Below are positions 54,334 to 59,923 of a DNA stretch of 64,000 nt, piece after piece; the first letter of the stretch is position 1; the number at the start of each line of letters is the position of its first letter. The DNA is from Bdellovibrionales bacterium RIFCSPHIGHO2_01_FULL_40_29 (GTDB taxonomy: Bacteria; Bdellovibrionota; Bdellovibrionia; Bdellovibrionales; Bdellovibrionaceae): NCBI GenBank assembly GCA_001771815.1, contig MEPU01000013.1, forward strand, positions 434,001 to 498,000, in the 5' to 3' direction. The position numbers were made by a program, and so were the translations under genes. Below the pieces are notes generated by a model. That model ran no database searches, was not told the DNA's origin, and saw nothing but the letters and a program-made list of their open reading frames with translations.

Positions 54334-55938
54334 ATGATTTTAGAAACCCAATTGGATGTTCAATCAGAAGAGTATCGAAAAAATAAAGCCGCATTGCTCG
54401 AGCAAGTCAGCGATTGGCGCCGTAAGGTTGAATTTGCAAAACTAGGTGGCGGAACTGAAGCATTGAAAAAGCATAAAGCCCGTGGAAAATTAACGGCACG
54501 CGAGCGCATTGAAGGATTATTAGATCCAGGGACAGCTTTTCTAGAGTTTTCAACATTAGCGGCTTTGGATATGTATGATGGTCAAGCTCCGGGTAGCGGA
54601 GTTATTACCGGTATTGGTGTCATCGAAGGGACTGAATGTATTTTGGTGGCCAATGATGCCACGGTTAAGGGTGGAACCTATTTTCCAATGACCGTAAAAA
54701 AACATTTACGGGCTCAGGAAATTGCCATGGAAAATGGCCTGCCATGTATTTATTTAGTGGATAGTGGTGGCGCGTATTTGCCATTGCAATCGGAAGTATT
54801 TCCTGACCGAGATCATTTTGGTCGTATTTTTTATAATCAAGCCCGCATGAGTGCACTGGGAATTTCACAAATATCAGTCGTGATGGGTTCCTGCACAGCC
54901 GGCGGAGCCTATGTTCCATCGATGAGTGATGAAAATGTGATTGTTAAAGATAATGGGACCATATTTTTGGGTGGTCCTCCGTTGGTTCGCGCGGCCACGG
55001 GTGAAATTGTGGATGCTCAGGATTTGGGTGGAGCACATACCCATTGCGAGATCTCTGGCGTCACCGATCATTTCGCCGAAGATGATCATCATGCGATCGA
55101 GATCACGCGATCGATTGTGAAACATTTGAATAAACGTAAAGTTGTAAATATTAAAACTCAACCGATTGAAGAACCGCTTTACTCAGCCGAAGAACTTTAT
55201 GGAGTATTGCCTGCAGATTCACGGATTCCATTTGATATTCGTGAAGTGATTGCGCGAATCGTGGATGGGTCTCAGTTTCACGAGTTTAAGCCACTTTTTG
55301 GAAAAACCTTAGTGACTGGATTTGCTCATATCTGGGGAATGCCCGTTGGGATTATTGCTAATAATGGAGTTCTATTCAGCGAGAGCGCTCAGAAGGCCGC
55401 CCATTTTATTCAATTGTGTGAGCAGCGCGAAGTTCCATTGATCTTTTTGCAAAATATCACGGGCTTTATGGTCGGAAAAAAATATGAGCATGAGGGCATT
55501 GCGAAACACGGAGCCAAAATGGTGATGGCAGTTTCGAACGCTCGGGTTCCAAAATTTACAGTGGTCATTGGTGGATCCTATGGAGCTGGAAATTATGGAA
55601 TGTGTGGACGGGCATATCAACCGCGACAATTGTGGATGTGGCCTAACGCACGAATCAGCGTGATGGGTGGCGAGCAAGCTGCCAATGTTTTATTAACTGT
55701 AAAAATGGATCAAATGGCAGCGAAGGGTCAATCGATGACAGTCGCAGAACAGGCTGAATTCAAAAGACCAACGCTAGAAAAATTCGAAAGCGAGAGTTCG
55801 GCCTATTTTTCAACAGCACGTATTTGGGATGATGGAATTATTGATCCTAAAGACACCCGAACTGTTTTAGCTTTGGGAATTTCGGCCAGTTTAAATTGTG
55901 CTTGGGGACCAAAACAGCAGGGCGTTTTTAGAATGTAA
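54334..55938 (+). CDS. mccB: Methylcrotonoyl-CoA carboxylase, carboxyltransferase (beta) subunit
   Basis: A 534-residue biotin-dependent carboxyltransferase subunit of the leucine pathway, converting 3-methylcrotonyl-CoA to 3-methylglutaconyl-CoA. The [17 protein letters not shown] opening, [60 protein letters not shown], and the C-terminal [23 protein letters not shown] segments match MCC beta closely. Length is normal. It heads the catabolic cluster with the downstream hydratase gene 12 bp away. Confidence 0.93.
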
Positions 55939-55950
55939 TCAGGAGTGAGC

Positions 55951-56700
55951 ATGAAGTTTTTAAAAATTGAAGATCTCGGTGAGTTTAAAGTTATTTCGTT
56001 GAATCGACCTGAGGTTAAGAACGCATTTCATCCTGAAATGATCTCAGAAATAACGGAAGTATTTACTGATTTCGCGAATGATAAAAAAACCAAAAGCATT
56101 GTGTTGCAAGGCCAGGGTACGGCTTTTTGCGCGGGTGCCGATTTAAATTGGATGAAAGAAATGGTCAACTACACGTTTGATCAGAATCTGAAAGATTCCG
56201 AAAAGTTATGGATGATGTTTGAAGCCATTGCCTTTTGCCCTGTTCCAGTAATTGGAGTGGCTCATGGAGCTGCGTTTGGTGGGGCTTTGGGGTTAATCGC
56301 TTGCTGTGATTATGTTTTTGCCGAGGAAAAAACACAGTTTTGCTTCAGCGAAGTGAAGTTAGGCTTAGCTCCGGCGGTGATTTCTAGTTTTATAAAACGT
56401 AAAATTTCTGAAGGCTCTGCGCGGTCTTTAATGCTATCTGCAGAAGTTTTTTCAACAGAAAAAGCAGTGGCAATTGGATTGGTTCATTCTACATTTAGTG
56501 GCGTATTCGATCTTGAAAAATCGTTGAAAAATTTTTCAAGTAATGGAACAGAAGCCATGCGGGAAACAAAAAAATTACTTAATCAACTTTCTGGTTCGGA
56601 TTGGGATAAGCAAAAAAAACTGACGACAACTGTTATTTCTGAGCGACGGATGAGCGCCGAAGGCCAAGAGCGACTTAAAAAGTTTGTCGATAAAAAATAG
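55951..56700 (+). CDS. liuC: Enoyl-CoA hydratase/isomerase family protein (methylglutaconyl-CoA hydratase-like)
   Basis: A 249-residue crotonase-family enzyme. The oxyanion loop is in QGTAFCAGADLNWM (about 54-67) and the second one in GVAHGAAFGGALGLIACCDYVFA. The position between MCC subunits and HMG-CoA lyase supports the hydratase forming HMG-CoA from 3-methylglutaconyl-CoA. The start at 55951 has AGGAG five nt upstream; a GTG two codons earlier is less likely. The C-terminal helix ends in RLKKFVDKK. Confidence 0.85.
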   Translation: MKFLKIEDLGEFKVISLNRPEVKNAFHPEMISEITEVFTDFANDKKTKSIVLQGQGTAFCAGADLNWMKEMVNYTFDQNLKDSEKLWMMFEAIAFCPVPVIGVAHGAAFGGALGLIACCDYVFAEEKTQFCFSEVKLGLAPAVISSFIKRKISEGSARSLMLSAEVFSTEKAVAIGLVHSTFSGVFDLEKSLKNFSSNGTEAMRETKKLLNQLSGSDWDKQKKLTTTVISERRMSAEGQERLKKFVDKK

Positions 56701-56701
56701 G

Positions 56702-57079
56702 TTAGCTGTCCTTGACGGGTGTATAAACGGTCACAAACAGTTCCGTTTCCTCGATCAAATCTTCATCAGGAAATTGTTGTTTATAAAAAGCTGAGTACTC
56801 GTTATGAAATTTTTCAACATTATCACCGAATCCAATGAGCTGTAAAAGCCGTGGATTGGGTTCGCCAAAAGTGGTTGTGAAGGCCTCGACCAATTTGGCT
56901 TTCCCAAGCTCTTCTTTTTGCATATTGCAGACAAGATACGTATGACCCACTTCGGCAACACGCTCGTCTGTTAGTCCTGGCGAAATTTTTTCAATACGAT
57001 CTTTTGGCTCACAGCTAACAAAAATGCCACTTTTTAAGATCTGCATTGAAATAGGATCTAAATATAACCCAATTTTCAT
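56702..57079 (-). CDS. Unknown protein encoded antisense within the liu cluster
   Basis: A 125-residue soluble acidic protein on the opposite strand, filling the 430-bp space between the hydratase and biotin carboxylase genes. It shows no signal, membrane helix or recognised domain; sequence has several aromatic residues and two cysteines. Its stop lies 1 bp from the hydratase stop and its start is 53 bp from the start of the divergent carboxylase gene. Codon use resembles a real gene, so it is likely coding, but its role is unknown. Confidence 0.6.
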   Translation of the reverse strand: MKIGLYLDPISMQILKSGIFVSCEPKDRIEKISPGLTDERVAEVGHTYLVCNMQKEELGKAKLVEAFTTTFGEPNPRLLQLIGFGDNVEKFHNEYSAFYKQQFPDEDLIEETELFVTVYTPVKDS

Positions 57080-57132
57080 AAGTTTATTTTACAGAAAGTG
57101 ACATCCAATTAAAACAAGATTATAAAAAAAAG

Positions 57133-58611
57133 ATGAAATCTATTCACCGAGTTGCAATCGCTAATCGTGGAGAAGTGGCAGTTCGCATCATTCGTGCATG
57201 CGAAGAGCTAGGCTTAGAGACTGTTTTGCTTCATTCAGACGCAGACATTGATTCTCGAGCGTATCGTTTGGCGACGAAAACAATTTGTATTGGTCCAGCT
57301 CCGACGGCACAAAGTTATTTGAATATTTCCGCAAATATTGATGCGGCATTAGCCTCCGGCGCGGATGCGATTCATCCTGGGTTTGGTTTTTTATCTGAAA
57401 ATGCTGATTTTGCCCAAGCGTGTGAAGACGCTGGCTTAATTTTTATTGGACCAAGTGTTGAGGCCATTCGAACTTTGGGCGATAAAATGACTTTTAAAGC
57501 GTTGGCTAAAAAAGCCAATTTGCCATTGATTCCTGGATATGAGGGTTCTGATCAATCTGTAGAAACATTGGTGGCGGAGGCCGAGAAAATTGGTTTTCCA
57601 GTTATTGTCAAAGCGGCTGCTGGCGGTGGTGGTCGTGGAATGAAGTTGCTGACATCTTCAAGCGAAGCCAAAGATCTTATTGAATCTGCGCAGCGGGAAT
57701 CTTTGTCGGCATTTGGTTCCGAGAAAGTTTTTCTTGAAAAGTACCTGGGGCATGCCAAGCATATTGAATTTCAAATATTTGGAGACAGCACAGGACATGT
57801 GGTGCATTTATTTGATCGTGAATGCTCTGTTCAGCGTCGCCATCAAAAAATTATTGAAGAGGCCACATCGCCATCACTGACCGATGAATTGCGCCGTCAA
57901 ATGGCCGAGGTGGCCTGCACCATTGCAACATTAGGAAAATACAAGAACGCGGGAACCGTTGAGTTCTTGCTTCAAGATAATAAGTTCTATTTGCTCGAGG
58001 TGAATACGCGGTTGCAAGTTGAACATCCGGTTACCGAAGAAGTTGTTGGCGTGGATTTAGTAAAAATGCAAATTTTAACGGCCGCAAATAACTTTGTCTT
58101 TGGAAACAAGGATATTCGAATACCCAAAGGCCACGCAATTGAGTGTCGAGTGTATGCGGAAGATCCTTTCATGAATGGGATGCCATCGACCGGAAAAATT
58201 GGGACACAAATTTGGCCCGAAGGTCCTCGTCGTCGCTATGAGTATGGGTTTGACGAGGGCGATACAATCACGGCGCATTACGATCCCATGATTGCTAAAG
58301 TTATTGTGTGGGATGAGAATCGTCCACGCGCGATTCAAAAAATGATTCGCACGTTGAAGGACTGTGTTATTTTTGGAGTGCACACGAATATTCCTTATCT
58401 TATTGAAATTTTAGATCATCCTGATTTTCGAGATGGGTCTATGACCACCAGATTCATCGAAAAGCATTTTTCAGAAGGTCTGCAAAAATCAGAAGAGAAT
58501 TTAAAATGGGCCCCGCAAGTTTATAAAAAATATTTAGAAGTTTCTTCATCGGGTGGTCATCACCAGAGCTCCATTTCTTCTCCGTGGCAGTTTTCTTGGA
58601 GAGGTATTTGA
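57133..58611 (+). CDS. mccA: Methylcrotonoyl-CoA carboxylase biotin carboxylase subunit (split alpha)
   Basis: A 492-residue biotin carboxylase that uses ATP and bicarbonate to carboxylate biotin. The MKSIHRVAIANRGEVAVRIIRA opening, the AAAGGGGRGMK ATP-grasp glycine loop, HIEFQIFGDS, ERECSVQRRHQK-type segment (DRECSVQRRHQKIIEEA), EVNTRLQVEHPVTEE and PEGPRRRYEYGFDEGDTI are intact. Normal MCC alpha is about 660 residues with C-terminal BT and biotin domains; here the frame stops at SPWQFSWRGI, just where the BT domain begins, and continues as a separate gene in another frame. Confidence 0.92.
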   Translation: MKSIHRVAIANRGEVAVRIIRACEELGLETVLLHSDADIDSRAYRLATKTICIGPAPTAQSYLNISANIDAALASGADAIHPGFGFLSENADFAQACEDAGLIFIGPSVEAIRTLGDKMTFKALAKKANLPLIPGYEGSDQSVETLVAEAEKIGFPVIVKAAAGGGGRGMKLLTSSSEAKDLIESAQRESLSAFGSEKVFLEKYLGHAKHIEFQIFGDSTGHVVHLFDRECSVQRRHQKIIEEATSPSLTDELRRQMAEVACTIATLGKYKNAGTVEFLLQDNKFYLLEVNTRLQVEHPVTEEVVGVDLVKMQILTAANNFVFGNKDIRIPKGHAIECRVYAEDPFMNGMPSTGKIGTQIWPEGPRRRYEYGFDEGDTITAHYDPMIAKVIVWDENRPRAIQKMIRTLKDCVIFGVHTNIPYLIEILDHPDFRDGSMTTRFIEKHFSEGLQKSEENLKWAPQVYKKYLEVSSSGGHHQSSISSPWQFSWRGI

Positions 58612-59012
58612 TGAGCCAACTCAAAGAAGTTAAAGTTTTAATCGATGGGATCGAGACTACTGTCCTTGCACAAACCATTGGTCAAAAGTTTTGGTGCAAC
58701 GTCAATTCCAAGACTTATTGTTTTGATATTTCTGAAGTTTCAGGTGGAACCCAAGGTCGAAAAAATAAAGCTCAGGTGAAGACGCCTCATTTAATTTTAG
58801 CCCCAATGCCGGGTAAAATTACTAAAATATTTATTGATTCCGGCTCACAGGTTCAAAAATCTCAGGCCCTTTTGGTGATGGAAGCCATGAAAATGGAGTA
58901 CACATTAAAATCTGATCTGAACACAGTGGTTGAAAAAGTTAATGTTCAAGTTGGAGATCAGGTGACTTTAGGGTCACTATTGATCGAACTTAAGCCCGAG
59001 GTTGTCGTATGA
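58611..59012 (+). CDS. Biotin carboxyl carrier protein (C-terminal part of MCC alpha)
   Basis: A 133-residue protein ending in a biotinyl domain with the EAMKMEYTLK motif; K94 is the biotin attachment site. The first about 55 residues look like the remainder of the BT domain of MCC alpha (VKVLIDGIETTVLAQTIGQKFW). Its ATG overlaps the mccA stop (TGATG), so translation is probably coupled. The split is either natural gene fission or a frameshift in this sequence; both parts together make about 625 residues, close to normal. Confidence 0.9.
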   Translation: MSQLKEVKVLIDGIETTVLAQTIGQKFWCNVNSKTYCFDISEVSGGTQGRKNKAQVKTPHLILAPMPGKITKIFIDSGSQVQKSQALLVMEAMKMEYTLKSDLNTVVEKVNVQVGDQVTLGSLLIELKPEVVV

Positions 59013-59923
59013 AATCAGTCAAGATTGTAGAAGTTGGACTTCGAGATGGTTTGCAAAATGAAACCACGATGCTTTCGGTAGATCAGCGATTAGTTTTGCT
59101 TAAAAAATTAATTGAAGCGGGTGTGACTCATTTTGAAATTGGTGCTTTTGTTTCTCCAGAGTGGGTCCCGCAAATGTCAGTGACTGCAGATTTGATTGGG
59201 AAGTATTACTCCAGCTCTGTATACAATAAAAAATTTTCCGCAAGCGTTTTAGTACCTAATGAAAAAGGGATGCGTTTGGCCATCGAGGCTGGCGTCAAAG
59301 AAGTTGCTATTTTTGCTTCGTGCTCAGAGACTTTTTCGAAAAAAAATATCAACTGCACAATAGATGAAAGCTTTGAACGATTTAAGCCAGTTATTGCCTT
59401 GGCTAAAAAACATAAGATCAAAGTTCGAGGTTATCTATCCACGTGTTTTAGCTGTCCTTTTGAGGGCGCGATTTCTCAAAAAAAAGTGATCGCGATAGCG
59501 CGCCGAATGTTCAAACTTGGTGTTTACGAAGTTTCTATTGGTGATACGATTGGGGCGGCTCATGTTGGAGAAGTCCGCACACTTTTTTCAAAATTAAAAA
59601 AGGCTATTCCTATTAAAAATTTAGCGGGTCATTTTCACGATACTCGTGGTCAGGCATTGGCAAATATTTTAGCGGCCTATGACCTGGGTGTGCGAACGTT
59701 TGACACCAGTTTGGGTGGATTGGGTGGATGTCCTTATGCTCCGGGTGCTTCAGGTAATGTGGCCACCGAAGACGTTGTTTATATGTTTGAAGGCATGAAA
59801 GTAAAAACAGGTTTAAAGTTGGATAAATTAGTTGAATTAAATCAGTGGCTACAGCCACTAATGAATCATTCCTTGCCATCCAAAGTGGGTCGAGTCGGTC
59901 GATTGAAACCCCTGAAAAAATAG
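59009..59923 (+). CDS. mvaB: Hydroxymethylglutaryl-CoA lyase
   Basis: A 304-residue TIM-barrel lyase splitting HMG-CoA into acetoacetate and acetyl-CoA, the last step of leucine breakdown. The opening VEVGLRDGLQNE (about 7-18) with the catalytic Arg-Asp is diagnostic, the metal ligands are in GHFHDTRGQALAN, and the catalytic cysteine loop is GGCPYAPGASGNVATED. It overlaps the preceding carrier gene by 4 bp, completing the operon. Confidence 0.94.
   Translation: MKSVKIVEVGLRDGLQNETTMLSVDQRLVLLKKLIEAGVTHFEIGAFVSPEWVPQMSVTADLIGKYYSSSVYNKKFSASVLVPNEKGMRLAIEAGVKEVAIFASCSETFSKKNINCTIDESFERFKPVIALAKKHKIKVRGYLSTCFSCPFEGAISQKKVIAIARRMFKLGVYEVSIGDTIGAAHVGEVRTLFSKLKKAIPIKNLAGHFHDTRGQALANILAAYDLGVRTFDTSLGGLGGCPYAPGASGNVATEDVVYMFEGMKVKTGLKLDKLVELNQWLQPLMNHSLPSKVGRVGRLKPLKK

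Follow-up and report, generated by a model that had tools for sequence, protein, structure and literature searches.

A predicted 3-methylcrotonyl-CoA carboxylase of the Bdellovibrio group with its alpha subunit divided over two genes at the hook of the BT domain

In the 3-methylcrotonyl-CoA carboxylases (MCC) with solved structures the alpha subunit is usually a single chain, yet MCC activity does not require one. The proposed MCC of Bacillus subtilis, YngH/YngHB (BLAP), has biotin carboxylase (BC) and biotinyl carrier as separate genes in an MCC-like cluster, as in the locus described here; the YngHB carrier, ~73 aa, is without BT strands and YngH is without the BC tail. The enzymes of Pseudomonas aeruginosa (PaMCC) and human (alpha6-beta6; 3U9S and 8J4Z) hold BC, a complete BT barrel with its helix and the biotinyl domain (BCCP) on one alpha chain. 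In the two-subunit pyruvate carboxylase (PC) of Methylobacillus (5KS8) a BT-like domain is formed in trans, with the BC chain ending in the BT helix and four strands placed on the other chain, CT-BCCP. In this enzyme a wholly hydrophobic helix is enclosed between two sheets, while the PT domain of single-chain PC has an amphipathic helix lying against a sheet of four strands (PMC5059739). In the acetyl-CoA carboxylase BC1 of Chloroflexus aurantiacus (8HZ4), where BC and BCCP are fused, BC is held by an inter-chain barrel built from four beta-hairpins next to BCCP. BC and carrier on separate chains (BLAP; three-chain carboxylases) and an inter-chain BT-like domain (two-subunit PC) are consequently already known. 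No prior description was found of an MCC alpha divided at its hook that also lacks half of the barrel and has a Shine-Dalgarno sequence in the hook codons, and no paper was found on this enzyme in Bdellovibrio. A GeneTack table holds, under 'Biotin carboxylase', a cluster of gene pairs coupled in translation, which may be accB-accC or pairs like the one reported here (PMC3711429).

The window (the whole stretch of DNA that was analysed, 64,000 nucleotides) contains a locus with the same parts as PaMCC and human MCC, that is BC, BT helix, barrel strands, BCCP, beta subunit and pathway, as well as a hook with the conserved Trp as in PaMCC, but with two chains instead of a single-chain alpha and half a barrel instead of a complete one. 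Compared with Methylobacillus PC, where two chains share the helix and there is no hook, the locus has its sheet on BCCP alone, an amphipathic helix, and a hook on the BC chain. The features are, all on the forward strand:

54334-55938, +, predicted MCC beta (carboxyltransferase), 534 aa; best PDB matches are MCC beta
55945-56700, +, enoyl-CoA hydratase family, probable methylglutaconyl-CoA hydratase, GTG start; Pfam ECH_1 2.5e-38 and operon position
57133-58611, +, predicted MCC alpha chain 1 (BC, BT helix and hook), 492 aa; three Pfam BC domains
58492-58542, +, predicted BT-domain helix, amphipathic, about residues 454-470; mapped by alignment from the AF2 helix 457-474 of locus L104
58579-58608, +, hook tail SPWQFSWRGI with Trp485 and Trp489; entropy over 65 non-redundant sequences
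58598-58604, +, embedded Shine-Dalgarno GGAGAGG, 6 nt 5' of the ATG; codons TGG AGA GGT (Trp-Arg-Gly)
58609-58613, +, TGATG stop-start overlap of 1 nt, read from the sequence
58611-59012, +, predicted MCC alpha chain 2 (BT half-barrel and biotinyl domain), 133 aa; Biotin_lipoyl and hhalign
58623-58727, +, predicted four-stranded BT remnant, chain 2 residues 5-39; AF2 strands and hhalign to the last BT strands
58890-58892, +, predicted biotinyl Lys94 in an AMKM motif, invariant in 33 sequences
59009-59923, +, hydroxymethylglutaryl-CoA (HMG-CoA) lyase; NCBIfam PRK05692 1.8e-112, over its cut-off

Judged by homology and gene context the enzyme is the MCC of leucine catabolism. In the PDB the 54334-55938 product matched the beta subunits of PaMCC (2e-232) and human MCC (7e-231), with PCC beta at 1e-84 or weaker, and since it aligns to PaMCC beta from residue 2 the N-terminal extension is kept; the hook of MCC and GCC is in part situated close to the N-terminal helix of beta (PMC4673880). 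The ORF at 57133-58611 contains the Pfam domains Biotin_carb_N, CPSase_L_D2 and Biotin_carb_C and its product aligns to PaMCC alpha (1e-132) across window residues 2-486. Sequence models name this BC chain a subunit of 'acetyl-CoA carboxylase', so that its MCC identity is easily missed. The first-pass annotation had called it MCC alpha, which agrees with a beta subunit clearly of the MCC type and an operon for leucine catabolism. The gene order CT-hydratase-BC-BCCP-HMG-CoA lyase is kept across the clade, and in the window the ORF of the lyase overlaps the end of the BCCP ORF by 4 nt (ATGA).

Between the hydratase and BC genes of the operon lies a 125-aa gene on the reverse strand (56702-57079) without Pfam match. 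It is located just 5' of BC in the near relatives L008, L010, L014 and L016 and was undetected at the MCC loci of more distant relatives.

The BC chain ends with ...SISSPWQFSWRGI followed by the stop TGA (58609-58611), and the ATG at 58611-58613, which shares the A of this stop, opens the ORF of chain 2, where Biotin_lipoyl (Pfam) covers residues 62-127 (1.2e-14). The annotated layout, a BC gene ending in SPWQFSWRGI at a TGATG with a separate biotinyl frame behind it, is thereby seen directly in the DNA, and the single BC-BT-BCCP alpha chain usual in solved MCCs is absent. When searching related species for the same split, an initial genome scan gave 80 loci, and after removal of identical proteins 95 of the 97 distinct loci in Bdellovibrionota were found to have a BC gene followed by a separate biotinyl gene, cut at the same motif; among them is a finished chromosome, CP025734 (L014). 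The split is real and runs through the lineage of the Bdellovibrio group. A one-base change could produce such a junction, but an indel from sequencing or assembly, or a decaying gene, is refuted by this comparison: the split recurs at 95 distinct loci drawn from many assemblies, the complete chromosome among them, and both halves are conserved in the same operon. Close relatives showed no intact single ORF, and the order's two fused loci are nested within the split clade.

At the level of the phylum, a BC gene was found at E < 1e-150 in 88 of 291 genomes. Three members of the order with small genomes (G177, G225 and G212; 1.2-1.5 Mb) gave no BC match at this threshold, which suggests that the MCC operon was lost with genome reduction.

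The two genes overlap by 1 nt in 41 of the 95 split loci and by 4 nt in 38, and the rest range from 0 to a gap of 46 nt (L128). Genes that overlap by 1 or 4 nt are known to be tightly coupled in translation and are enriched among subunits of heteromeric complexes (PMC10666635, PMC6728339). The downstream gene lies in frame -1 in 81 loci, +1 in nine and 0 in five, the last with both genes in one frame and a single stop between them. Shine-Dalgarno-like elements ahead of a -1 junction can stimulate frameshifting. With such an element preceding the -1 junction, and the five in-frame loci offering a stop to read through, a programmed frameshift or stop read-through could additionally yield a fused alpha, but we regard this as highly improbable: programmed frameshifting would be expected to hold one constant frame, yet the frame differs between species, the 46-nt gap at L128 is at odds with it and no slippery heptamer of the type XXXYYYZ is present near the junction of the window. 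Slippage, raised as a possibility in the first-pass annotation, is by this comparison rejected as the principal reading.

The first-pass annotation had the cut coincide with the beginning of the BT domain. This position needs correction because the BT helix (about residues 454-470) remains on the BC chain; the cut falls after helix and hook and ahead of the barrel strands, at the hook-barrel joint. A motif P(W/F) is found within the last 20 residues of 89 of 95 BC tails. When aligning the tails at the Pro (65 non-redundant sequences) the entropy was 0.62 bits at the Trp/Phe at +1 and 0.75 bits at the Trp at +5, against ~3.6 bits in the 29 residues preceding the motif; the low values at Pro and +1 are partly built in by the anchor, while Trp +5 and Ser/Asn -1 are free of its choice. 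Trp +5 is found in 51 of 58 aligned tails, and the second Trp is absent in 12 of the 65 non-redundant sequences. The sequence (S/N)PWxxxW is thus an island of peptide conservation within a hypervariable tail, and as SPW is situated upstream of the Shine-Dalgarno sequence, translation does not account for its conservation.

The hook of PaMCC, SPWSRNDGW497RSALA, matches human SPFSSSSGR543R (chain numbering) without gaps, so that the residue referred to as Trp543 in PaMCC by human numbering (PMC4673880) corresponds to PaMCC Trp497, the Trp of the GW pair, which is invariant in 14 fused relatives. This hook Trp is buried in the beta subunit of PaMCC (PMC4673880). Trp489 of the window aligns with PaMCC Trp497, in a loop two residues shorter, and is by this alignment the equivalent of the hook Trp of the MCC BT domain. 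The BC chain thereby ends right after a Trp that would be expected to grip the beta subunit.

The hook Trp-Arg codons double as the Shine-Dalgarno sequence of BCCP. Directly behind the last Trp, Arg is encoded by AGA or AGG in 68 of 70 cases, whereas AGR makes up 14.7% of the Arg codons of the BC body. At loci with another residue in this place, codons for Ser (AGC/AGT in 6 of 7), Gly (GGN) or Glu (GAG) mostly keep the position rich in purines; these counts, like those of the tails, come from related sequences and are not independent events. The mean energy of the duplex with the anti-Shine-Dalgarno sequence was -8.07 kcal/mol, while 200 synonymous recodings drawn with the gene's own codon use averaged -5.11 (sd 0.17, minimum -5.73). 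Among the ten starts compared in the window BCCP reached -7.8 and HMG-CoA lyase -7.1 kcal/mol while BC (start region 57113-57135) reached -0.7; with almost no Shine-Dalgarno at BC and strong ones at BCCP and the lyase, the downstream chains might be in excess. The features of a termination-reinitiation pair, a stop-start overlap of 1 or 4 nt and an internal Shine-Dalgarno, are present. The motif is a clean example of peptide codons taken over as a Shine-Dalgarno sequence: throughout a bacterial order the choice among synonymous codons is almost fixed.

That the Trp-Arg codons so clearly serve translation raises the possibility of a BT domain fully dissolved, with BCCP as a freely diffusing carrier and the hook motif merely a ribosome-binding site. 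In B. subtilis a small biotinyl protein (BLAP/YngHB) is encoded on its own beside the proposed MCC genes (PMC4016012) and the BC of Alicyclobacillus, 444 aa, is without a tail. We nevertheless consider this unlikely, as SPW is outside the Shine-Dalgarno sequence and yet the most conserved part of the tail, and as the strands persist in chain 2 and also in L166, where the two genes are re-fused.

When aligning chain 2 with the fused BT-BCCP family (hhalign, 2.8e-31) the match covered the last BT strands and BCCP, placing a BT remnant on the biotinyl chain as had been annotated. No counterpart aligned to the roughly 45 residues that make up the first half of the BT barrel. Of the seven or eight strands of the MCC/GCC barrel four remain in the sequence, and some relatives in the genus of the window (e.g. 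L013) are without the first of these, leaving three. By these alignments the first barrel half is absent, the helix and hook are on the BC chain and the last four strands on the BCCP chain.

Structure predictions are consistent with this division. At locus L104 the BC and BCCP genes are in one frame across a TAA, and a read-through product with this codon as Gln, an artificial tether, was modelled with AF2 (mean pLDDT 91, pTM 0.88). The model matches the alpha structures of human MCC, PCC and PaMCC, and shows the helix (457-474), strands at 495-500, 503-512, 515-520 and 523-528, and then the biotinyl domain behind a flexible linker. Residues 475-491, including the hook, have low pLDDT, which would be expected of a hook that folds only on beta but is no proof of it. 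Modelled alone, chain 2 of the window has strands at 5-11, 14-23, 26-31 and 34-39 (block pLDDT 75-82) followed by linker and biotinyl domain, and in Foldseek it matched best to single-chain pyruvate carboxylases (E ~1e-9, aligned along the whole chain), in which an amphipathic helix and four-stranded sheet likewise lie ahead of BCCP, though in one polypeptide and with CT inserted between helix and sheet. VIA-align of chain 2 covered mostly the biotinyl domain (residues 50-130) and tells little of the strands, of which Foldseek covers more.

With roughly half a barrel remaining, two BCCP chains might instead each contribute a four-stranded sheet around one BC helix (BC1:BCCP2), as two beta chains do in two-subunit PC; the BT-like domain of the Methylobacillus enzyme (MfPC) is alpha1-beta2 (PMC5059739), and its BC chain (5ks8_A) aligns to the L104 model up to the end of the helix (model residues 3-474). 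Such a barrel is associated with a wholly hydrophobic helix, whereas the helix segment of the window is amphipathic with 28% charged residues (moment 0.46 vs 0.33 in fused MCC), and some relatives have only three strands, which makes the arrangement decidedly unlikely. The amphipathic helix favours, without being proof of it, a PT-like half-barrel with one BCCP per BC over the 2:1 barrel.

Two loci of the same order, L166 (646 aa) and L167 (612 aa), have single fused ORFs with HMG-CoA lyase as the next gene. In a BC tree of 85 rows they form a pair (98) inside the split clade, and because of this nesting the fusion is taken as derived within the clade; both look like secondary re-fusions. The L166 junction, NSPWTNQWKESALYQG, joins the hook straight to what is the start of the BCCP chain at other loci (SPWTNQW-KESALYQG), and the codons TGG AAA GAG still resemble a worn Shine-Dalgarno sequence. 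The operon of L166 is the same and the BT strands are kept.

At its base the tree leaves the polarity, fission or a three-chain ancestor, undecided, with both states in the outgroup. That the lineage inherited a three-chain acyl-CoA carboxylase, so that the split is ancestral, concerns the origin only and is compatible with the two-chain reading given below; we find it possible but doubtful. A three-subunit ancestor has been proposed by Lombard and Moreira (PMC3199775), the PCC-like carboxylase of the same genome also has CT, BC and BCCP as separate genes, and relatives in Chloroflexota and Acidobacteriota are likewise split. Against this, the fused Pseudomonas MCC has the SPW...WR hook as well, and the lack of half of the barrel has the appearance of a loss.

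Carboxylases of Chloroflexota (L081, L084 and L087) and Acidobacteriota (L086) are cut near a Trp-containing tail (TSNWKWVSRWERMNR, SSNWLTIGRAEALR) and their biotinyl chains retain a longer stretch ahead of BCCP; the hook joint may then be a recurrent break point. The other acyl-CoA carboxylase of the genome consists of three separate genes (L176:557-4178; G000:C13:183556-187177), with a CT of the PCC-beta type, a BC of 502 aa ending in a possible hydrophobic BT helix and then ...ASTWKRIGRKLQLRT, and a biotinyl chain of 177 aa. When this last chain was aligned as a single sequence with the fused family (hhalign) the biotinyl domain alone aligned. A search of the genome gave no AccA above the cut-off, and the second carboxylase may for this reason have to supply malonyl-CoA.

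The first-pass annotation was right to place the cut inside the BT region, and the question it posed, how the complex is held together, is the real one. We consider it probable that the MCC alpha is made as two chains by termination-reinitiation and that helix, hook and sheet come together in trans as a reduced BT domain of the PT-like kind. Synthesis of chain 1, consisting of BC, BT helix and hook (SPWxxxWRxx), would stop at the TGA and ribosomes would restart on the overlapping ATG, aided by the Shine-Dalgarno sequence within the hook Trp-Arg codons, so that chain 2 (four BT strands and biotinyl domain) is produced beside chain 1 from one mRNA. The helix and hook of BC and the four-stranded sheet of BCCP would then reform the reduced BT domain, while Trp489, near the C-terminus of chain 1, would insert into beta and anchor the BC chain; we infer reinitiation, assembly in trans and docking on beta from the computational evidence above. 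The more specific proposal of a half-barrel BT built from two chains, with a hook of nine to ten residues acting as both beta-docking peptide and ribosome-binding site of the partner, is advanced tentatively, with slightly less than even confidence. If it is true, the same few codons encode docking and the synthesis of the partner chain. The enzyme of the window, with helix, hook Trp and four strands but neither the covalent alpha link nor half of the barrel, offers a natural test of which BT parts are required to keep a 750-kDa carboxylase together.
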